From a virus, in IMG/VR virus record IMGVR_UViG_3300018074_000001, positions 1 through 43,316 of that record: a DNA stretch of 43,316 nucleotides. One strand, written 5' to 3'. The stretch's first letter is position 1. The number at the start of each line of letters is the position of its first letter. The position numbers and the translations under genes were made by a program. The notes under the pieces were generated by a model. It saw nothing but the letters and a program-made list of their open reading frames with translations, was not told the origin of the DNA and ran no database searches. Below are positions 951-43,089 of the stretch, in pieces.

Positions 951-1174
951 TCCGGAGGCAATCATTCGCCCACAAAGGTATCCGTATGACCGGTGAGGCG
1001 GTGCCTGTGGAGTACAACGAGATCTCGATCACGCGCACGAGCCGCTCGACGGTGCGGTGCCATTTCTGCCTGGAGCCGGCCGCCGGGGAGCGGCTGAGGC
1101 TCGGCCTGGTGCGGGCGCGGGTGTGTCCGCCGTGCCGCGTGGCCCGCAATATTCCGTTGGAGGTGAAAGCATGA
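947..1174 (+). CDS. small zinc-binding protein (75 aa)
   Basis: The start at 947 overlaps the previous stop (ATGA). The product carries CHFC and CPPC pairs in its second half, about 20 residues apart, a typical zinc-knuckle arrangement. The family was not recognised. It is one of at least seven small cysteine-pair proteins in this phage. The gene is coupled to the next one by another ATGA overlap at 1171. Confidence 0.65.
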   Translation: MIRRQSFAHKGIRMTGEAVPVEYNEISITRTSRSTVRCHFCLEPAAGERLRLGLVRARVCPPCRVARNIPLEVKA

Positions 1175-1761
1175 GCCTGCCCCGTCCGATCATCCCGGCG
1201 CCGAAGGGCATCGAGATCCATCCGTATACCGATCCTAGGCCCAAGGTGTTCGAGGGCGCCACCACTCCGCTCGCTGTCGACGTGGCCAATATGGGCAATG
1301 CGCCGCGGCTGCCCGCCGCCGAAGGCGAGTACAAGAAGCGCGTGACCGCCAGGACCAAAGCCAAGGCCAAGTCGAACGAGTCGGTCAAGCGGCGTGACCT
1401 GATCCCCGGGCATGAGATCTATCTCATGATCTGCCAGCAGGTGGGCGGCGATCCCACGGCGAAGAAGACGATCACCATCGATGCCGGCGAAGAGCGCACC
1501 GCCATGAAAGTGCGGGTGAATTTCTACTCGTGGCGCCAGGCCACCATCCGCGAACTCGGCCCGGATTTCGCCAAGGACAACCACCTCCAGGACATCAAGG
1601 TCTATCTCGACCCGGTGCTGGATTCGAATGGGGTGATCGTGCGCCATCCGCGCCGGCATATCCCCAAGTCCAATGGCAAGGTGATCTTCTATTCGATCCG
1701 GAGCATGCGCGAAATGGTGGCCCTGTCGCAGGCGCTGCCGCAGTTAGGAGTCACGCCATGA
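1171..1761 (+). CDS. hypothetical early protein (196 aa)
   Basis: ATG at 1171 overlaps the upstream stop. The product is 196 residues. It has a proline-rich N-terminus, a lysine/arginine-rich segment near residues 52-72 (KKRVTARTKAKAKS), and then a mixed alpha/beta region. No catalytic motif or family was recognised. The basic linker would suit nucleic-acid contact, but this is inference. It sits in the ATGA-coupled run between the methyltransferase and the recombination genes. Confidence 0.7.
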   Translation: MSLPRPIIPAPKGIEIHPYTDPRPKVFEGATTPLAVDVANMGNAPRLPAAEGEYKKRVTARTKAKAKSNESVKRRDLIPGHEIYLMICQQVGGDPTAKKTITIDAGEERTAMKVRVNFYSWRQATIRELGPDFAKDNHLQDIKVYLDPVLDSNGVIVRHPRRHIPKSNGKVIFYSIRSMREMVALSQALPQLGVTP

Positions 1762-2115: not shown

Positions 2116-2202
2116 TCTACCTAGCACAAATAAGTACCTATGTACTATTGCAAGTCTACCTAGCATCGGGTTACTATCAGAACAGAAAGGATCACACACA
2201 CA
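2116..2202 (+). promoter_or_regulatory. early promoter with repeated operator-like boxes and leader
   Basis: The -35 box TTGCAA is at 2148-2153 and the -10 box TACTAT at 2172-2177, with an 18-bp spacer. The 11-mer TCTACCTAGCA occurs twice, at 2116-2126 and 2155-2165; the second copy lies in the spacer. An inverted repeat AGTAC/GTACT (2133-2146) lies just upstream and its 18-bp context recurs at 41513. Exactly 25 bases separate the -10 box from the ATG at 2203, and they include the module AAAGGATCACACACACA. This looks like a regulated promoter for the recombination and modification operon. Confidence 0.65.
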
Positions 2203-2469
2203 ATGACCATCAACTTCCACAATCACGATGCCGACAAGGCCCGCTTCGAGGCCAAACTCCAGGGCGAAACCGCCTGGTTCTCGATCACCGCCAATGACGG
2301 CTTCTCCAACTTCACGCTGTTCTTCGATCCCAAGAACATCGCCCACGTCATGGGCCAGATGGAGAAAGCGCTCGGCGAGATGGAGACCATCGCCGCCCAC
2401 CTCGACCGCGACTCCGACGGCGAGCTCGCCCCCGCGGGCGTGTCCGAACAGGACGGGGTGCTCGTCTAA
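2203..2469 (+). CDS. hypothetical early protein (88 aa)
   Basis: This is the first gene after the 2148 promoter. The start is set by the AAAGG leader module shared with three other genes. The 88-residue acidic product has a likely beta-rich N-terminal half, a helix around residues 45-66, and an acidic tail. It is coupled to the RecT-like gene by a TAATG overlap, so it may be made with the recombination proteins. No family was recognised. Confidence 0.7.
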   Translation: MTINFHNHDADKARFEAKLQGETAWFSITANDGFSNFTLFFDPKNIAHVMGQMEKALGEMETIAAHLDRDSDGELAPAGVSEQDGVLV

Positions 2470-3359
2470 TGAGCGAGAATCTCCCCGCACGCATGGGTCT
2501 GGCCGAGGTCCAGACCCTCGGCGCTTTGCTGGCCAAGTCCGGCTACTTCGCCGATGCCAAGGACGCCGCGCAGGCTTGTGTCAAGGTGCTGGCAGGGCAG
2601 GAACTCGGCCTGCCCCCGATTGCCTCGATGATGGGCATCTCGCTCATCAAGGGCAAGGTCACCTTGTCCGCCAATCTCATGGCTGCGCTGATCCGCCAGC
2701 ATGGCTACGACTTCCGCGTCGAGCGGCTCGAGCAGGATGGCTGCACCCTCTCCTTCCTCGCCAAGGACGGCAAGGAGCTCGGCAAGTCCACCTTCACCGC
2801 CAAGGATGCTCAAGCCGCCGGCATCCGCGGCGACATGTATAACAAATACCCCCGCAACATGTACTTCGCCCGCGCCATCTCGAATGGGGCCAAGTGGTTC
2901 ACGCCCGAGATCTTCGGCGGCGTGCCCGTCTACTCGGACGGCGAACTCGGCGAAGGGGAAACGGCCGAGGCCGAAGCACCTGCCCCGGCGCCCGCTCCCG
3001 TGCCCGCCAGACGCGTCGAAGAGGCCAAGCCTGCCCCGGCACCCCTCCCCGACATCGAGCCTCGCCTCGCCGAACTGTACGCGCAGGCGACCGGGTTTGC
3101 CGAGACGGTGCAAATTGTGACCGGGTTCAAACCGATCATCAACGAACTCACCGGCTCCGAGCACGAGTACTATCGCATCATCGGCGAGCACGGCATGCAG
3201 CATGGGAATGAGTTGCACGGCCGCACGAGGCGACAGATCAGAGAAATCATCAAGAGCTTGTATGAGTACTGCACGCAGGTTGCTAGCCCGCCTCCCCCCG
3301 ATCAGGCAGAGGCGGATCCGGCCTGGGAAGCCTTGGCTGAGGGCACCGATGCACGATAA
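2469..3359 (+). CDS. RecT-like single-strand annealing recombinase
   Basis: This 296-residue protein resembles phage RecT-type annealing proteins, which pair complementary single strands during recombination and replication. The supporting region is residues 15-160: a helical stretch with AGQELGLPP, the beta segment ISLIKGKVTLSANLM, and the block KYPRNMYFARAISNGAKW, which matches the conserved KYPR-x-ML-x-ARA region of that group. It is followed by a Pro/Ala/Glu-rich linker (about 160-190) and a variable C-terminal domain. No paired exonuclease was found beside it, although a Gp157 gene overlaps its end by 11 bp and a nuclease lies at 4528. Family assignment is from memory of motifs. Confidence 0.7.
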   Translation: MSENLPARMGLAEVQTLGALLAKSGYFADAKDAAQACVKVLAGQELGLPPIASMMGISLIKGKVTLSANLMAALIRQHGYDFRVERLEQDGCTLSFLAKDGKELGKSTFTAKDAQAAGIRGDMYNKYPRNMYFARAISNGAKWFTPEIFGGVPVYSDGELGEGETAEAEAPAPAPAPVPARRVEEAKPAPAPLPDIEPRLAELYAQATGFAETVQIVTGFKPIINELTGSEHEYYRIIGEHGMQHGNELHGRTRRQIREIIKSLYEYCTQVASPPPPDQAEADPAWEALAEGTDAR

Positions 3360-3924
3360 CAAGCTCTCCCTCTATGCCATCGAGCAGGAGTTGACGCAGT
3401 TCATCGACACCGAGGCGCTCGTCCCCGAAGACCAGCTCCAAGCCTTCCAGGCCGCCTTCCTCGAGAAGACGCAGCAGGCGGTAGCCAAGCGCGGCAATTG
3501 CATCCGGGCCATCTCCCACATCGAGGCGCAGATTGCCGGCGCCAAAGCCGAGGAGAACCGCATCGCCGAGTGGCGCAAGTCTCTTGAGTCGGGCCTCGAG
3601 CGCTTCAAAGCCTACCTCATCCGCTGCATCGAACTGTCGGGCCAAAAGAAAGTCGAGGCCGACAACGGCAGCCTTGCCATCCAGGCCAACCCGGAGAGTG
3701 TCGAGATCACCGACTTGGATGCGGTGCCCGACGAGTTCAAGACCTTCACGGTCCAGATGAGCGGCGCTGCCTGGCGGGAACTCTCTGCCGATCTCGAAGA
3801 CAGGATGGACATCAAAGTCACCTACACGGCAGACAAAGTGGCCCTTCGAAAGGCTATGAAAGAAGGCCGGGATATACCGGGAGTTGATCTCAAATTCGGG
3901 CGCAACCGGCTCGTCGTTCGTTAG
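3349..3924 (+). CDS. Gp157-like phage protein (siphovirus Gp157 family)
   Basis: This 191-residue protein has the layout of the Gp157 family, first described in Streptococcus phages. It has an N-terminal LYAIEQELTQFID segment, a long coiled coil (about residues 50-100), the conserved turn SVEITDLDAVPDEFK, and a C-terminal KVALRKAMKEGRDIPGVDL motif. Gp157 genes commonly neighbour recombination genes. Older work linked them to phage resistance when expressed in hosts, and their biochemical role is unclear. ATG at 3349 overlaps the RecT-like gene by 11 bp, supporting joint translation. Confidence 0.8.
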   Translation: MHDNKLSLYAIEQELTQFIDTEALVPEDQLQAFQAAFLEKTQQAVAKRGNCIRAISHIEAQIAGAKAEENRIAEWRKSLESGLERFKAYLIRCIELSGQKKVEADNGSLAIQANPESVEITDLDAVPDEFKTFTVQMSGAAWRELSADLEDRMDIKVTYTADKVALRKAMKEGRDIPGVDLKFGRNRLVVR

Positions 3925-6036: not shown

Positions 6037-6230
6037 TCATCACGTTCCACGAACATAACCTGCCCGCCGGGATCAAGCCCTACACCATCGAGGTCAACTC
6101 GATCCTCGGCACTGTCAACGAGGATAGCGGGGCGCTCGCCGTCCTCCTGGCTCTGCCGTATGGCGAATGGCAGCTCACCGTCACCAACCATACCGAGGTC
6201 TACCTCGGCCGCCTCACGGTGGAACCATGA
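6033..6230 (+). CDS. hypothetical protein (65 aa)
   Basis: ATG at 6033 overlaps the previous TGA. The 65-residue product appears all-beta: alternating hydrophobic strands, with no cysteines and no membrane segment. It is not assigned to any family. It is part of the unbroken ATGA chain from 4297 to 7225. Confidence 0.6.
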   Translation: MIITFHEHNLPAGIKPYTIEVNSILGTVNEDSGALAVLLALPYGEWQLTVTNHTEVYLGRLTVEP

Positions 6231-20778: not shown

Positions 20779-21354
20779 ATGTCCCAAACCGATTCTATCC
20801 TTGATCTGCTGGATAAATACGTCCCAAATCGACAGCCGGATCACTGTTGGCTCTGGACCGGATATATCAAATCCACTGGTTACGGTATTTGCCACTGGCA
20901 AAAGAAAACCCATAGGGCACACCGGCTGGTGTACGAGTATCTCGTCAGCGCTGTCCCGAAAGGCCTTGAACTCGACCACCTCTGCCGAAACCGCGCTTGT
21001 GTGAACCCTGCTCATTTGGAGCCAGTTACTCACAAAGAGAACATGCGCCGTGGCTACCGGAGTGAACGGACTCACTGCGTTCATGGCCATGAGCTTATCG
21101 GGGAAAATACTCGCTGGTATGGCACTCAACGCATTTGTAGAACCTGCGCACAGCAACACTATCGACGCCACCAGAATTGGCAGGGTGGGCCTTTTAACCG
21201 AGACAAGACTCATTGCCCAAAGGGCCATGCTTACGACGAAGCAAACACCAGCATCAACAGAGCCGGATCTCGCGTCTGCCGGGAATGTAAAAACCAGCGG
21301 TCGCGCGCGAATTATCACAAAGCCGCCTCAATCAAGGCGGCGCTCTCTTCGTAA
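20779..21354 (+). CDS. HNH homing-type endonuclease 1 (191 aa)
   Basis: This gene lies opposite to all neighbouring late genes. The 191-residue product has DHCWLW, HRLVYE, then the HNH core ELDHLCRNRACVNPAHL (D66-H67, N77, H80 region). Two copies of a C-terminal zinc motif follow: HCVHGHE...CRTC and HCPKGHA...CREC. Such free-standing HNH genes spread by cutting alleles that lack them. It sits between the 95-aa gene and the tail fibre gene and ends 17 bases from the convergent fibre gene. No good Shine-Dalgarno sequence was seen. Confidence 0.85.
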   Translation: MSQTDSILDLLDKYVPNRQPDHCWLWTGYIKSTGYGICHWQKKTHRAHRLVYEYLVSAVPKGLELDHLCRNRACVNPAHLEPVTHKENMRRGYRSERTHCVHGHELIGENTRWYGTQRICRTCAQQHYRRHQNWQGGPFNRDKTHCPKGHAYDEANTSINRAGSRVCRECKNQRSRANYHKAASIKAALSS

Positions 21355-31013: not shown

Positions 31014-31550
31014 ATGGCTAATGGATATGGTATCCCGCTTCCCCAGTTTCCCCCTAAGGAAGAAGGAAAATTCTGGTCGAAGATCGACCGCCGCTCCGAT
31101 TCGGAGTGCTGGCTCTGGCAGGGCAATAGGTACCACAACGGATATGGGCAGCACATTGCTTGCGGGCGCACCATGAGAGCGCATCGCATCGCCTTCCTGC
31201 TGGGGCACGGAATAGATCCCGCGCCTTTCCTCGTTTGTCACACATGTGACCAAAGGTTGTGCTGTAATCCGAAACACTTGTGGCTCGGGACGGCGGTTCA
31301 AAATTCGCGTGATGCTGTGGCCAAGGGGCGCATGGCGCACGGGGATGATCACTACCTGCGGAGATACCCTGAACTTAGGCATGGACGACGGAATGGAGCA
31401 GCCAAACTGACCGAGGCTGACGTCATCGAGATCCGGAGACTCTACGCTACCGGAGACTGGTTGCAGCGCGAGATCGGCGCGAAGTTTGGCTTGAGAGCTG
31501 GCTATGTGTGCCTGATCGTGAACCGGAAGCTGTGGGCGCATGTGAAGTGA
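31014..31550 (+). CDS. HNH homing-type endonuclease 2 (178 aa)
   Basis: ATG 31014 has GGAGG 4 bases upstream. The product has SECWLWQG, HRIAFLLGHGIDP, then the HNH core CHTCDQRLCCNPKHLWLGT (75-93), and a C-terminal DNA-reading part AKLTEADVIEIRRLYATGDWLQREIGAKF, a helix-turn-helix. It is a close paralogue of the protein at 35585. It is oriented against the late genes, between portal and the small membrane proteins. Confidence 0.88.
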   Translation: MANGYGIPLPQFPPKEEGKFWSKIDRRSDSECWLWQGNRYHNGYGQHIACGRTMRAHRIAFLLGHGIDPAPFLVCHTCDQRLCCNPKHLWLGTAVQNSRDAVAKGRMAHGDDHYLRRYPELRHGRRNGAAKLTEADVIEIRRLYATGDWLQREIGAKFGLRAGYVCLIVNRKLWAHVK

Positions 31551-35584: not shown

Positions 35585-36133
35585 ATGGCTAAATCAAAGT
35601 TTAGAACACTGCCTGCGTTGACCGCGAGAGACATTGCCAGATTCTGGAAAAAGGTGGCCCGCTGCTCCGCTTCGGAGTGCTGGTTGTGGACGGCTGGCAA
35701 GACTCCCGCCGGATACGGGCATTTTGGTCTTTGCCGAAGCGGCAAGGACGAAACTTATTATGCGCATCGAGTCTCGTACTTCATAGAACACGGGGTGGAT
35801 CCCGGCAGTTTCCACGTGTGCCACACCTGTGATCAACCCTCGTGCGTAAACCCGGCGCATTTATGGCTCGGCACCGATGCCTCCAACATGCAGGATGCCT
35901 CTCGAAAGGGGCGCGTACTCACGGGGGACAACCATCCCTATCGAAAGCACCCGGAGCTTATACCGCGCGGAGAAGTGAGAGGTCACGCCAAACTGAAGAA
36001 TGCTGATGTCATCGAGATCCGGAAGCTATATGAAAGCGGCTGGCTTCAACGTGAACTCGCCGCGAAGTTTGCCGTGTCACTGAGCCGCATCAGCTACATT
36101 GTGACCCGCAGACACTGGTCTCACCTGCCCTAA
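35585..36133 (+). CDS. HNH homing-type endonuclease 3 (182 aa)
   Basis: ATG 35585 has GGGAGG 4 bases upstream. The product has SECWLWTAG, YYAHRVSYFIEHGVDP, the HNH core CHTCDQPSCVNPAHLWLGT (79-97) and a C-terminal helix-turn-helix (KNADVIEIRKLYESGWLQREL, split over two helices). It is a clear paralogue of the gene at 31014, with the same C-terminal plan. It lies opposite to the terminase genes, so both borders of the terminase block carry related HNH genes. Confidence 0.88.
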   Translation: MAKSKFRTLPALTARDIARFWKKVARCSASECWLWTAGKTPAGYGHFGLCRSGKDETYYAHRVSYFIEHGVDPGSFHVCHTCDQPSCVNPAHLWLGTDASNMQDASRKGRVLTGDNHPYRKHPELIPRGEVRGHAKLKNADVIEIRKLYESGWLQRELAAKFAVSLSRISYIVTRRHWSHLP

Positions 36134-38108: not shown

Positions 38109-38609
38109 CTATTTCAAAATGGCGTCAAGCGATACTTTGGACTCTTGGGCGGCGGCCTTCATGGCAGCGACCTTCGAGAGCACATCGCCGCGGCTCGCCA
38201 CTTCCTTCTTTTTTTGAGGATCGAGGGAATTCCAACGCGCCTGCGCTTCAAAGGCGGGGATCTTCAGGAGAAGGGCGATGGCCTGTACCGTGATGCTGTG
38301 AACGGATTTATCCGCACGGCGCAGACCCTCGCCTGCTTTAAGCTGCTGCCATAGCTTGGCCACCTTTGCTCTCGCGACGACGGGCGAGCCTTTACAACTG
38401 ACGTACCCTTGCTGGAGCCTGGCGATACAGCCCCAATACATCAGGGCGGTCTGCTGCTCGACAGGAAGCTCGGCCAGATTTAGAACTGTGCGTTCCCCAT
38501 CTTTCCAGTCGAAGGTCAAGGTGCCGTTCGAGGCATCCCAGTCGATCCGGGAGGTGATGTGGAGCGGAGATTTCTTGGAGGGAGATTCATCCCCGTTCGG
38601 TGTGTCCAT
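38109..38609 (-). CDS. hypothetical protein under TCTACCTAG box (166 aa)
   Basis: The 166-residue product has an N-terminal beta part (GTLTFDWKDGERTVLNLAEL), a helical middle with KAKVAKLWQQLKAGEGLRR-like charged residues, and a C-terminal helix bundle. It lacks known motifs. Its start codon (38607-38609) lies directly beside the inverted repeat CTACC/GGTAG (38612-38626), which contains a TCTACCTAG box, so it may belong to the same regulon as the early promoters. Confidence 0.65.
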   Translation of the reverse strand: MDTPNGDESPSKKSPLHITSRIDWDASNGTLTFDWKDGERTVLNLAELPVEQQTALMYWGCIARLQQGYVSCKGSPVVARAKVAKLWQQLKAGEGLRRADKSVHSITVQAIALLLKIPAFEAQARWNSLDPQKKKEVASRGDVLSKVAAMKAAAQESKVSLDAILK

Positions 38610-38610
38610 G

Positions 38611-38626
38611 TCTACCTAGATGGTAG
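38611..38626. promoter_or_regulatory. TCTACCTAG box / CTACC-GGTAG inverted repeat
   Basis: TCTACCTAG at 38611-38619 is one of four copies found by eye. Here it extends to a 15-bp inverted repeat, CTACC-TAGAT-GGTAG. On the minus strand a weak promoter TTGCGT, 17 bp, TACCAT would overlap it, ending just before the ATG at 38609. It is a likely operator. Confidence 0.45.
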
Positions 38627-38779
38627 CGCTTAACTAGAATGAACGCAACCGAATCAATTAGACTGCCAAGCCGTTTCGTTTTGCCTACACCGATACGAGG
38701 CGAGGCGCAGCGGGATTCCGCATGGACAACAAATCAATCAACCCTTTGCTCGGTTTGCGAGAGCTGCTGCGCCTCTTGC

Positions 38780-39432: not shown

Positions 39433-39645
39433 CTATTCTATACCCGTAACCTCAACTCTGACCGGTGGTTTGCGAGGAACCGGAATCAATTTCACCCAGC
39501 CTTTTTTCTGCCTGATCGAGAACACCTTCCCGGTCGCGACGCCGGCGATCCCGCAGCACCCGCAGTGGCAGCACACCCATTCTCCGGTCTCCTGCAGCGT
39601 CACGGCGGCCGAGCTGCACATCGGGCATTTGAGGTGGGTGGTCAT
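39433..39645 (-). CDS. zinc-ribbon protein (70 aa)
   Basis: The 70-residue product has CPMC (7-10) and a cysteine-rich cluster CCHCGCC (25-31), then a basic beta-like tail (KGWVKLIPVPRKPPVRVEV). This is a small zinc-ribbon. No ribosome-binding site is obvious before ATG 39645. A transcription-related role is possible but not shown. Confidence 0.6.
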   Translation of the reverse strand: MTTHLKCPMCSSAAVTLQETGEWVCCHCGCCGIAGVATGKVFSIRQKKGWVKLIPVPRKPPVRVEVTGIE

Positions 39646-39744
39646 AACGCACGAAGACCCCGCCGAGTGGGATCTGCGGCGAGGCCCTCATGAAAACGAA
39701 TCACACTAACAATGAGTTGGTCTGAGAAATATTATGCCACAGAC
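39646..39744. other. intergenic gap, no gene supported
   Basis: This stretch lies between the zinc-ribbon start and the structured RNA. A minus-strand frame from ATG 39691 overlaps the zinc-ribbon gene out of frame and looks like a shadow. Nothing else was seen. Confidence 0.4.
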
Positions 39745-39855: not shown

Positions 39856-40122
39856 TCACGAACAGTCCACCCGCGTACCCCCGTCAAACGGGGTCGGCTC
39901 CCGTTCTACCCGCTTCGCCCGCGGAGCCACCAGCCCATACCGCTCGGCGTGCGCCCACTCCACCGCTTCCTTGGCATCGGCTACCCGCTCAAACTTCCCC
40001 AGCTCGTCCCCGCCGTAATAGGCAGGATAGCTCAGGAGCTTCCGCGCGTCTTCGAAGGAGCCGTAGATTCCGCTCGTGAAGTAATCGTTGTCATGGCAGT
40101 AGGCGTTATCCAGCCACTTCAT
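39856..40122 (-). CDS. small protein with viroplasmin-like segment (88 aa)
   Basis: The 88-residue product contains SGIYGSFEDARKLLSYPAYY followed by KFERVADAKEAVEWA, which resembles the small viroplasmin/RNase H1 N-terminal domain that binds RNA-DNA hybrids. The resemblance is partial. It overlaps the upstream winged-helix gene by 17 bp, so the two are probably co-translated. The structured RNA lies just downstream. Confidence 0.5.
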   Translation of the reverse strand: MKWLDNAYCHDNDYFTSGIYGSFEDARKLLSYPAYYGGDELGKFERVADAKEAVEWAHAERYGLVAPRAKRVEREPTPFDGGTRVDCS

Positions 40123-40789
40123 AGTCGTCCGGGTCGGCGAACCGCTGCTCTAGCCTCTCCTCGTGCTCCAACTCCTTGAGCGGCCGCGCGTAGCTCCGGC
40201 GCTTCGACTGCAGCATCAACTCAGCCAGCACCTGGTCCTTCGTCCACTCCGGGTGCAGCCCCTTTACCTCGGCATACGCCCGTTTCTTGCCTTCGATCTT
40301 GATACACACGAAGCACATCCCGTCCGCCGCCACCTTCACGCCCTTCCTCGGGCATACCACGCAATCCCCAATGGCGTGCTTGGCTACCTCGGGCCGCTTT
40401 GGTACCCGCCGCAGAGCCTTCCCGGTCAGTTTGTATACGTAGGTAGTCGAGTCCAGCCGCTCGACCGTGATGTACTCAAGCCCCACCAGTTCCTTCACCT
40501 GCCGCCGCGTTTCCCGCTCCCCGTTTCGCGTCACTTGGGACAGGCTGGCGATTTTCACCTTTGCCGATCCCTTCGGATACGTGGTCAGCGACAGCCAACT
40601 CAGCAGGAAGAACGCCGACTTCGACAGCGTCCCATCCAGGTGTACCGCCAGCGGCAGCCGGCTCTCTGTTCCGGCTCCCAATTCAGGCAACGTGACCGGA
40701 CATTTTGCGTCATGTGACCGGACATTTTCGCCCGGGCGTCTTATAGGAGACGCGCGCGGGTCTTCTTTAACCGATTTTCGCGCTCTCAC
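40106..40789 (-). CDS. winged-helix DNA-binding protein with zinc knuckle (227 aa)
   Basis: The 227-residue product has a winged-helix-like domain (about 50-120: SKSAFFLLSWLSLTTYPKG, LSQVTRNGERETRRQVKELV, GLEYITVER), then a CVVC...CFVC zinc pair (about 143-162), then a basic helical tail. It could be a regulator or a second replication-type protein, and it is the best candidate reader of the TCTACCTAG boxes. Start GTG 40789 overlaps the upstream TGA (GTGA). Its 5' end contains a tandem 15-bp repeat read in two different frames. Confidence 0.6.
   Translation of the reverse strand: MRARKSVKEDPRASPIRRPGENVRSHDAKCPVTLPELGAGTESRLPLAVHLDGTLSKSAFFLLSWLSLTTYPKGSAKVKIASLSQVTRNGERETRRQVKELVGLEYITVERLDSTTYVYKLTGKALRRVPKRPEVAKHAIGDCVVCPRKGVKVAADGMCFVCIKIEGKKRAYAEVKGLHPEWTKDQVLAELMLQSKRRSYARPLKELEHEERLEQRFADPDDYEVAG
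40692..40728. repeat. tandem 15-bp repeat inside the winged-helix gene
   Basis: GTGACCGGACATTTT occurs at 40692-40706 and again at 40714-40728 (period 22). The spacing is not a multiple of three, so the two copies encode different residues (ENVRSH and AKCPVT on the minus strand). That argues for a DNA-level role, such as a protein-binding site, or a mobile-element footprint. Confidence 0.8.
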
Positions 40790-41152: not shown

Positions 41153-41527
41153 TAACTGAAAGCGGGCGCCCCCCCGGCCTGGGGGTGCCCCGGCCCCTTT
41201 GATGCAGAGCACTCTGTGGGAGAGAGCAGTGTAATCGGCAAGCCCGGGTCTGCTGCATCACAGTGCACTCTGCAGAGCAGAGTACTCAACGGCTACGGCA
41301 TACGAGCATCGATGGCACCAAAGGCATGCGCTTCACGCATGGCATTGGCGCATCTTCCCCGGCGATGGCGGTATTCCACTGGCAATGAGCTGCCATTTGA
41401 CGCAGTCCAGGTCAAAATCCCCGGCTCGTTTGAGCCCGATCGCAGGGTTAGGGCAGTCAAAGGTGTGCTACGAATTGAAACGATCGTAGCAATTTGTAGA
41501 TAATCCTAAAACAGTACCTAAGGACTA
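41153..41527. other. divergent intergenic region with hairpin and CAGAG repeats
   Basis: This is the main non-coding gap, between the leftward group and the rightward early operon. It holds a GC-rich hairpin (41165-41173 with 41181-41189, 9 bp with one G-U), a cluster of CAGAG/CTCTG words (41205-41216 as inverted repeat, 41268-41282 as palindrome plus tandem copy), and a hairpin GGCTC-GTTT-GAGCC at 41423-41436. It could be the control region or an origin. A 95-codon plus-strand frame here has no ribosome-binding site. Confidence 0.5.
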
Positions 41528-41562
41528 TTGTTCTAGGTAGAGATGCGAGTTAATATCTGAAT
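41513..41562 (+). promoter_or_regulatory. early promoter with TCTACCTAG box (inverted) in spacer
   Basis: The -35 box TTGTTC is at 41528-41533 and the -10 box TAATAT at 41551-41556, with a 17-bp spacer. The 18-mer at 41513-41530 matches 2133-2150 at 16 of 18 positions, and the spacer holds CTAGGTAGA (41533-41541), the reverse complement of the box in the other early promoter. The expected start point is at or next to the ATG at 41563, so the first transcript may be leaderless. Confidence 0.65.
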
Positions 41563-41637
41563 ATGGATAGAACATACACAGCGATTGAAGTGATCAGGCA
41601 TCTGATGGGAAGGGCAGTGGATCACTACAACTCCTGA
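41563..41637 (+). CDS. tiny possible leaderless peptide (24 aa)
   Basis: A 24-codon frame, MDRTYTAIEVIRHLMGRAVD followed by HYNS, begins 7 bases after the -10 box, where transcription should start. There is no Shine-Dalgarno sequence, as expected if leaderless. It could equally be a chance frame in an untranslated leader. Confidence 0.35.
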   Translation: MDRTYTAIEVIRHLMGRAVDHYNS

Positions 41638-41774: not shown

Positions 41775-41827
41775 TGTACAAAGACAGACAAAATCGTATA
41801 AAGTAGAACAAAGGATCACAACACACA
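41775..41827 (+). promoter_or_regulatory. promoter and AAAGG leader module
   Basis: A -35 box TGTACA (41775-41780), 16-bp spacer and -10 box TATAAA (41797-41802) precede the leader AAAGGATCACAACACACA. The distance from the -10 box to the ATG at 41828 is 25 bases, exactly as at 2178-2202. The surrounding A-rich DNA supports a promoter. Confidence 0.6.
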
Positions 41828-41992
41828 ATGACACAGAAGCGACTCTGCAATGAAGCGGGTCCGGTATCCATCTCGAGCGCTGAGAACGTGCGTGGGTGGA
41901 TTGGCTGCCCCTCCTGCGGGAAGAAGTGCAAGGTCAGGCGCAATGCTTCAGGCGTGGCGACGATCCGCCCCCACAAGGAGGCTGCCAAATGA
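41828..41992 (+). CDS. small cysteine-containing protein (54 aa)
   Basis: The start is set by the AAAGG leader module. The 54-residue product has C7 and then GCPSCGKKC (CPSC plus a third cysteine), followed by a basic tail. It is another small zinc-type early protein. Its stop overlaps the next start by ATGA. Confidence 0.65.
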   Translation: MTQKRLCNEAGPVSISSAENVRGWIGCPSCGKKCKVRRNASGVATIRPHKEAAK

Positions 41993-42159
41993 AGCGCAAA
42001 CCTGCCGAGGGCAAAACGCTGTACGAAATCTTCACGGGAGAAAAACCGCCCGCGCGTTGCGAGCAATTGTCGAAACCGGGGGAACCCGGTCGCGCAGAAA
42101 CCAAGCCTACTGCGCTTGATAAGACAGGCTTACTTTCGAAAGGATCACACACACAATGA
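41989..42159 (+). CDS. small basic early protein (56 aa)
   Basis: ATG 41989 overlaps the upstream TGA. The 56-residue product is rich in K, P, E and T and probably disordered. Its last codons (KGSHTQ) are written by the AAAGG leader module of the next gene, so the module serves as coding and start-site sequence at once. Function unknown. Confidence 0.55.
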   Translation: MKRKPAEGKTLYEIFTGEKPPARCEQLSKPGEPGRAETKPTALDKTGLLSKGSHTQ

Positions 42160-42548
42160 AACTCATCACACTGGCGTTAGCAGGAGCGATAGCGCTCTCG
42201 GCCCAATCTCCGATCGTCGTCTCGCGCGACGGGAAGTACTTGGGCAACCTCAGCTCGAACCCGTACGACCCGAATTCGATCGCCAATCCGTATGGCCGGT
42301 ATGGTTCTCCCTACCAGTCCGACTCCGTTAACAATCCGTATGGCCGCTACGGCAGCCCGTATTCGAACCAGAGCGCCAACAATCCGTATGCGACGCAGGC
42401 GCCCATCGTCATTGCGCCCAGGCCCGCCTACACGGGAGGCTATCCGGTGTATCATGCTCCCTCGCCGGTGCGGCCGGCGATGTCCTACTACACTCCGGTG
42501 CTGCCGGCCTATCCGATGGCTCCGGTGATGGGCGTATTGCCCTACTAG
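42156..42548 (+). CDS. secreted NPYGRYGSPY-repeat protein (130 aa)
   Basis: The 130-residue product starts with a signal peptide (MKLITLALAGAIALSAQS, cleavage likely after AQS). DGKYLGNLSSNPYDPNSIA follows, then two 16-residue repeats starting NPYGRYGSPY and a partial third (NPYATQ). The tail is Pro/Tyr-rich. I recall this repeat in bacterial and phage exported proteins of unknown function. An early exported protein could act on the envelope, for instance to block adsorption of other phages, but that is inference. The start uses the AAAGG module. Confidence 0.75.
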   Translation: MKLITLALAGAIALSAQSPIVVSRDGKYLGNLSSNPYDPNSIANPYGRYGSPYQSDSVNNPYGRYGSPYSNQSANNPYATQAPIVIAPRPAYTGGYPVYHAPSPVRPAMSYYTPVLPAYPMAPVMGVLPY

Positions 42549-42552
42549 CCCA

Positions 42553-42864
42553 ATGAGCGAAGTAAAGCCGATCCCCCGCAAGCCGCTAGCTCAGCTGTCG
42601 CGCGACCGGCTTTGCTCCTCCCATCCTGACCTGCTCCGCTCGGCTGCCTTCACGGAGGCAGCCTATTTGCTTTCCTACTACGGCGATGATGCGCTCAGCG
42701 GGCTCGCCGTGTATTTCGAGGCCATCGCCGAGGATTTCAGGGTGAGGGTGAGGCGGAGAGATCAGGCTTCGAAGCTCGCCGCAGCGGAGGTGCTCGAGGA
42801 TTTGCGTGTCCGTTATCCCCATCTCCACCCTCAGCCTAATCAACAAGCCAAGCTCAAAAGTTAA
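42553..42864 (+). CDS. hypothetical early protein (103 aa)
   Basis: The 103-residue product is mostly helical with many Arg residues (AEDFRVRVRRRDQASKL...). The conserved-looking AAYLLSYYGDDALSGLAVYF segment is near the middle. No cysteine pairs or membrane segment. It lies 4 bases after the secreted-repeat gene. Family not recognised. Confidence 0.6.
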   Translation: MSEVKPIPRKPLAQLSRDRLCSSHPDLLRSAAFTEAAYLLSYYGDDALSGLAVYFEAIAEDFRVRVRRRDQASKLAAAEVLEDLRVRYPHLHPQPNQQAKLKS

Positions 42865-42885
42865 TCGATTGAAAGGATCACACAC

Positions 42886-43089
42886 ATGAACAGACAATTT
42901 TTATTGACAAGTATCGCGACGGCGGAGGCCATCAGCGATAGCGCGAAGACTCCGCGCCAAGCGCTGACATGGTCGGCGGAGGGGCGGGATTGGCGGGAGA
43001 AAGCCGGAAAGCTTACCGACGAGGAAGAAACGGAAGTAGAGCGATTACGGGAAGAAACGCGCGTAAAGCTCGCCGAGGCCGCGCTGTGA
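42886..43089 (+). CDS. small charged protein before the methyltransferase (67 aa)
   Basis: The start is set by the fourth AAAGGATCACACAC module. The 67-residue product ends in a strongly charged helix (DEEETEVERLREETRVKLAE). Its TGA overlaps the GTG of the methyltransferase (GTGA). No family was recognised. Confidence 0.65.
   Translation: MNRQFLLTSIATAEAISDSAKTPRQALTWSAEGRDWREKAGKLTDEEETEVERLREETRVKLAEAAL

Follow-up and report, generated by a model that had tools for sequence, protein, structure and literature searches.

Four intergenic sites of an uncultivated phage genome carry the same nine-letter word, TCTACCTAG, and the question that they raise is whether this word is the operator of a regulator encoded by the phage itself and, if so, which protein would bind it. 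The stretch of DNA analysed (the window, 43,316 nucleotides) is a virus record, IMG/VR IMGVR_UViG_3300018074_000001, and corresponds to a complete phage genome of 43.2 kb whose first and last 123 bases are identical (a 123-bp end repeat). Its rightward arm comprises the operon behind a control region named PX, followed by the RecT/Gam/DnaB/primase operon behind PE, and its leftward arm, behind PL, holds the genes for terminase, portal, capsid and further virion proteins. All three control regions carry the word: two copies stand at PE, ahead of the rightward RecT operon, and one each at PX (early operon, also rightward) and PL (structural operon, leftward). Three plus-strand HNH_3 endonuclease genes (20779-21354, 31014-31550 and 35585-36133), with matches in all close relatives, interrupt the leftward series of virion genes.

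Relatives were gathered from IMG/VR using the RecT protein, the PX region, a 196-aa protein and the PL gene product as queries, and form a family of about a dozen records of uncultivated phages. A host search with the capsid and 196-aa proteins, covering 84,980 genomes of bacteria and archaea, turned up no relative. By portal protein, the nearest isolated phages are Microcystis phage Mel-JY34, Vibrio phage VS-ABTNL-3 and Caulobacter phage Kuura (30-38% identity), from which the motif set is absent; TCTAYCTAG has no copy in two of them and a single intragenic copy in the Vibrio phage.

Counts, spelling and conservation of the word

An earlier note, made from the letters of the window, had claimed four non-coding copies of TCTACCTAG close to the starts of transcription units, and an exact count confirmed them at 2116-2124, 2155-2163 and 38611-38619 on the plus strand and at 41533-41541 on the minus strand. 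All four lie at promoters and outside the genes conserved in relatives, and no full copy falls inside a gene of the window; the ORF preceding PE ends at 2113 and the PL gene starts at 38609, so that both flank the copies without overlap. Within one mismatch, the sole additional site of the window is TCTACCTCG at 6199. The claimed excess over chance is real, although the figure of about 0.3 expected copies was too high: dinucleotide-preserving shuffles of the window yielded a mean of 0.06 and at most 1, a lower expectation because CTAG is scarce in this DNA (29 occurrences in 43 kb). In six family genomes, TCTACCTAG tops all NNNNNCTAG words, with 15 copies against a mean of 0.39. The middle position of the word can be C or T. 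The idea of immunity groups, with TCTACCTAG in some phages and TCTATCTAG in others, was rejected, since both spellings coexist inside G003, G005 and G008, and the middle base is therefore degenerate and does not distinguish immunity types. The resulting consensus is TCTAYCTAG, with a core, CTAYCTAR, of 8-9 bp that is only half symmetric. Among the literature matches inspected for the word itself, none dealt with a phage operator.

The motif is kept in relatives as TCTAYCTAG-type sites at PE, PX and PL, and it is present in the family records that include a control region; in G009, the most distant RecT relative, it is missing. Across six genomes, 27 of the 32 CTAYCTAR matches fall within control regions that make up 2.6 of 242 kb (1.1%), an enrichment whose p-value is illustrative only, as these regions were drawn with the motif already known. 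The five relatives alone, which played no part in the discovery of the motif, have 23 of their 27 matches in control regions. In a weight matrix built from these same sites, the control-region sites outscore the rest of each genome, with few low-scoring exceptions. The number of sites per genome is 3-7, and each belongs either to a control region or to a PE-like promoter that has been duplicated; G008 has an inserted gene with an additional promoter of its own (1834-1862), where both sites recur and the one in the spacer is inverted. The word persists even though PE comes in three dissimilar versions and PL in several, its orientations being opposite at PE and PX and of both kinds at PL. The relatives share ancestry, and part of this conservation, notably that of a 60-bp block at PX, could be due to descent. 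The genomes themselves show the motif, where it lies, that it is conserved and that it occurs in both orientations; as in a regulon, the same word occurs above chance at several separate promoters and is conserved at orthologous promoters while their surroundings vary. We consider it very probable that the motif has a genuine regulatory role.

Architecture of the PE, PX and PL promoters

The three promoters were assigned by alignment and resemblance, and a promoter consensus scan did not call PE. On the plus strand, PE shows an upstream copy of the putative operator TCTACCTAG (2116-2124, conserved in G001 and G006), followed by the palindrome AGTACCTATGTACT (2133-2146), a putative activator site 1 nt upstream of the weak -35-like box TTGCAA (2148-2153, from alignment), the putative spacer operator TCTACCTAG (2155-2163, 39 bp after the first copy, start to start) and the -10-like box TACTAT (2172-2177, from resemblance and alignment), with a spacer length of 17-18 bp. 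The operon behind it starts at 2203 with an 88-aa ORF and includes RecT (2469-3359) and a Gam-like gene (3349-3924). This arrangement (type A) is that of the window, G001 and G006, whereas type B (G005 and G008) shows upstream CTACCTAA plus TCTACCTAG, a TTGACA box, a spacer with TCTACCTAG and TACTAT or TATTAT, and type C (G002, G003 and G004) shows upstream TTATCTAGA, TTGACA, a spacer with TCTATCTAG and GATTAT. The distance from the spacer copy to the -10 box is exactly 8 bp in all three types. The window and G006 have identical PE cassettes (2116-2200), their flanking genes being only 60-76% identical, which suggests that the promoter may have been swapped by recombination.

All eight records that contain PX have one order of elements: AGTACYTARGTACT, the box TTGTTC, a spacer with CTAGRTAGA, TACTAT (replaced by TAATAT in the window), CTGAAT and ATG. 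The window has the palindrome AGTACCTAAGGACT at 41513-41526 (AGTACCTAAGTACT in G004, G005 and G006), the weak -35-like box TTGTTC at 41528-41533 (plus strand, from alignment), the putative spacer operator at 41533-41541 (minus strand, reading CTAGGTAGA in the transcription sense) and the -10-like box at 41551-41556 (plus strand). The claim that two copies lie in promoter spacers thus holds for those at 2155 and 41533. The first ORF after PX (41563-41637, plus strand), with a predicted leaderless start, encodes 24 aa in the window, and 54-72 aa of dissimilar sequence in relatives; its ATG lies 6 nt past the -10 box in all of them, and therefore the transcript would lack a leader.

At PL, the putative operator (38611-38619) reads CTAGGTAGA on the transcribed minus strand, as part of CTACC-TAGAT-GGTAG, and is located between the start codon and the -10-like box TACCAT (38620-38625, minus strand), with a possible -35-like box TTGCGT further upstream (38643-38648, minus strand), both boxes deduced from alignment. 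The corresponding boxes of G004 and G005 read TTGACC and TACCAT or TACTAT. The first gene of the leftward structural operon (38109-38609, minus strand; 166 aa, no family match) has its start codon 1 nt past the operator, and its product belongs to a conserved family of about 165 aa whose start codon comes 7-12 nt after the -10 box. A ribosome-binding site would not fit into the 6-12 nt that separate the -10 box from the start codon at PX and PL; the PX mRNA appears to be leaderless, and that of PL probably is as well. The PL operator is spelled CTAGGTAGA in the window, G003 and G008 (reverse orientation), TCTATCTAA in G004 and TTATCTAGC in G006 (both forward), and CTAGATAG in G005 and L064 (symmetric in G005), and such a change of orientation at one fixed place seems hard to explain by descent alone.

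A second motif, AGTACYTARGTACT, is confined to PX and to PE of type A. At both promoters it ends 1 nt before a weak -35 box, and promoters with TTGACA as the -35 box lack it. One extra base is found within the palindrome in G003 and L059, and at PX it is one base longer or altered in some records. Given the predicted placement of the start, its centre lies near -43, where an activator that contacts the polymerase sits, as established for lambda CI at PRM. Because the palindrome abuts the -35 box only where this box is weak, these data suggest a putative activator site.

The surroundings of PX contain further elements. Just upstream there is a second sigma-70-like promoter (41475-41504, TTGAAA-18-GATAAT), also present in G003 and G004, which was favoured by the consensus scan and whose predicted start falls directly before the AGTACYTARGTACT palindrome. 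An inverted repeat, TGCTACGA-N10-TCGTAGCA (41466-41491), is found with conserved arms and a variable loop in G003, G004, G008 and L058, and G006 has a different perfect inverted repeat at the equivalent place, TGTCCTACATC / GATGTAGGACA. Dense short repeats around GCAGAGCACTCTG / CAGTGCACTCTGCAGAGCAGAGTACTC occupy the region before PX (41205-41290), which is possibly a replication origin. The string GAAAGGATCACACACA, which ranks among the most over-represented 12-mers, stands ahead of several rightward start codons in exact or slightly altered form (2184-2205, 41813-41831, 42139-42158 and 42870-42888).

Candidate binders and competing readings

The reading that we favour, and hold to be reasonably probable, is that TCTAYCTAG constitutes the operator of one sequence-specific repressor governing the three main transcription units. 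Protein binding, its repressive effect and the place where the protein is encoded are inferences. The repressor would occupy the -35/-10 spacer at PE and PX and sit over the transcription start at PL, and its presence would exclude the host sigma-70 RNA polymerase from the promoter by steric hindrance, with the additional upstream copies of PE strengthening the binding. Such a protein would most likely be made by the phage, early in the infection, perhaps from the PX operon, whose proteins accompany the motif everywhere, and the result would be a feedback loop that either shuts off early and structural transcription or sets its timing. PE promoters of types B and C, with a perfect TTGACA, need no help to bind the polymerase, and repression is therefore favoured.

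The proteins of the PX operon (947-1174, 1171-1761 and 42553-42864) show 76-97% identity in every motif-bearing genome examined and gave no family match; a further conserved product of this operon is encoded at 1928-2113. Two of these proteins, the most conserved of the operon, are candidate regulators: the 196-aa protein (1171-1761, plus strand; no known family), 76-90% identical in all motif-bearing relatives, and a helical 103-aa protein (42553-42864, plus strand), 85-97% identical in all relatives; their structure models are of low confidence (mean pLDDT 46.5 and 62.6, respectively). More tentatively, and with a rather low probability, a conserved PX-operon gene of unknown fold could encode a DNA-binding protein of a new kind, which, in phages devoid of an integrase and of a recognisable repressor, would act on a half-symmetric 9-bp operator to control early and structural genes from leaderless-mRNA promoters. 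Encoded nearby is a secreted-looking protein (42156-42548) with a signal peptide and NPYGRYGSPY repeats, 91-96% identical in most relatives and missing from G006. A zinc-ribbon protein is encoded at 39452-39691.

The proposal of the earlier note, an operator for a phage-encoded regulator, gains strong support from conservation as far as the operator and regulon are concerned, but the binder that it put forward, the winged-helix protein at 40106-40789, does not, as this protein has no tblastn match in any motif-bearing relative and probably is not the conserved binder. The gene adjoins PX, a leftward gene beside a rightward promoter as in immunity regions, and HTH_36 genes occupy the same place in G005, G006 and G008, with a winged-helix-like gene in G003. 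That this protein or its positional counterparts are the repressor is nevertheless highly improbable: the window protein matches HTH_36 weakly (E = 0.065), the HTH_36 search of G004, which bears the motif, gave no match, the leftward operon of 40106-40789 itself shows no motif, and the recognition helices of the counterparts are quite different although the motif is constant. A search of solved structures with the window protein retrieved only weak zinc-ribbon look-alikes. The constancy of the motif beside such variable winged-helix proteins would agree with a host-encoded regulator, an option absent from the earlier note, through which a phage that encodes no binder would sense the state of its host, and family searches found no conserved phage protein with a known DNA-binding domain. 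This possibility is unlikely, given that every genome with the motif also encodes several conserved proteins of unknown fold.

The remaining readings do without a repressor. If the word served to bind an activator, or acted as an additional promoter element for a sigma factor of phage or host, its position in the spacer and, at PE, its constant distance of 8 bp from the -10 box would be accounted for; both orientations occur, however, the PL site lies downstream of the -10 box, and PE types B and C already possess a full TTGACA, all of which makes this explanation improbable. Joint inheritance of promoter cassettes, with a word of no function, would fit the identical PE cassette of the window and G006 amid differing flanking genes, but a word that survives unlike PE and PL versions and changes of orientation, and is nearly absent elsewhere, leaves this idea with a minimal likelihood.

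Comparison with known operator systems

The repressor reading would provide likely control points for an uncultivated family of 44-kb soil phages, namely three promoters, an operator consensus and a second, activator-like motif, and the motif-bearing DNA offers a ready bait for isolating the regulator. If one of the conserved unknown-fold proteins turned out to be the binder, it would represent a new class of phage repressor. In phage lambda, several sites of one repressor, CI, overlap the early promoters of both directions at PR and PL. The present family resembles that system in the proposed presence of several operators of one repressor at promoters of both directions, but differs in its core of 8-9 bp, half symmetric, and in the hallmarks of lysogeny: as the earlier note had anticipated in recognising no classic repressor, the nine records searched gave no CI-like HTH_3 match above the cut-off, and no PF00589 match for a tyrosine integrase, in a search that included some fragments and was confined to tyrosine integrases.

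The operators and stoperators of cluster A mycobacteriophages (L5, TipsytheTRex) are similar in that one short, imperfectly palindromic word, located in non-coding DNA, is common to related phages. L5-type sites measure 13 bp, with over twenty in each genome, and no longer repress once reversed (PMC9283540). They also stand at non-coding places other than promoters, whereas the 3-7 sites per genome described here are found only at promoters, without a spread through the genome or between the genes of operons, and occur in both orientations relative to transcription, in phages in which no repressor or integrase is recognised. Finally, leaderless transcripts with a -10 box adjoining the ORF have been reported in Deinococcus-Thermus (PMC12340547). 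PX and PL share this adjacency, with the difference that here, where the leaderless starts are predicted, the putative operator lies between or around the elements.
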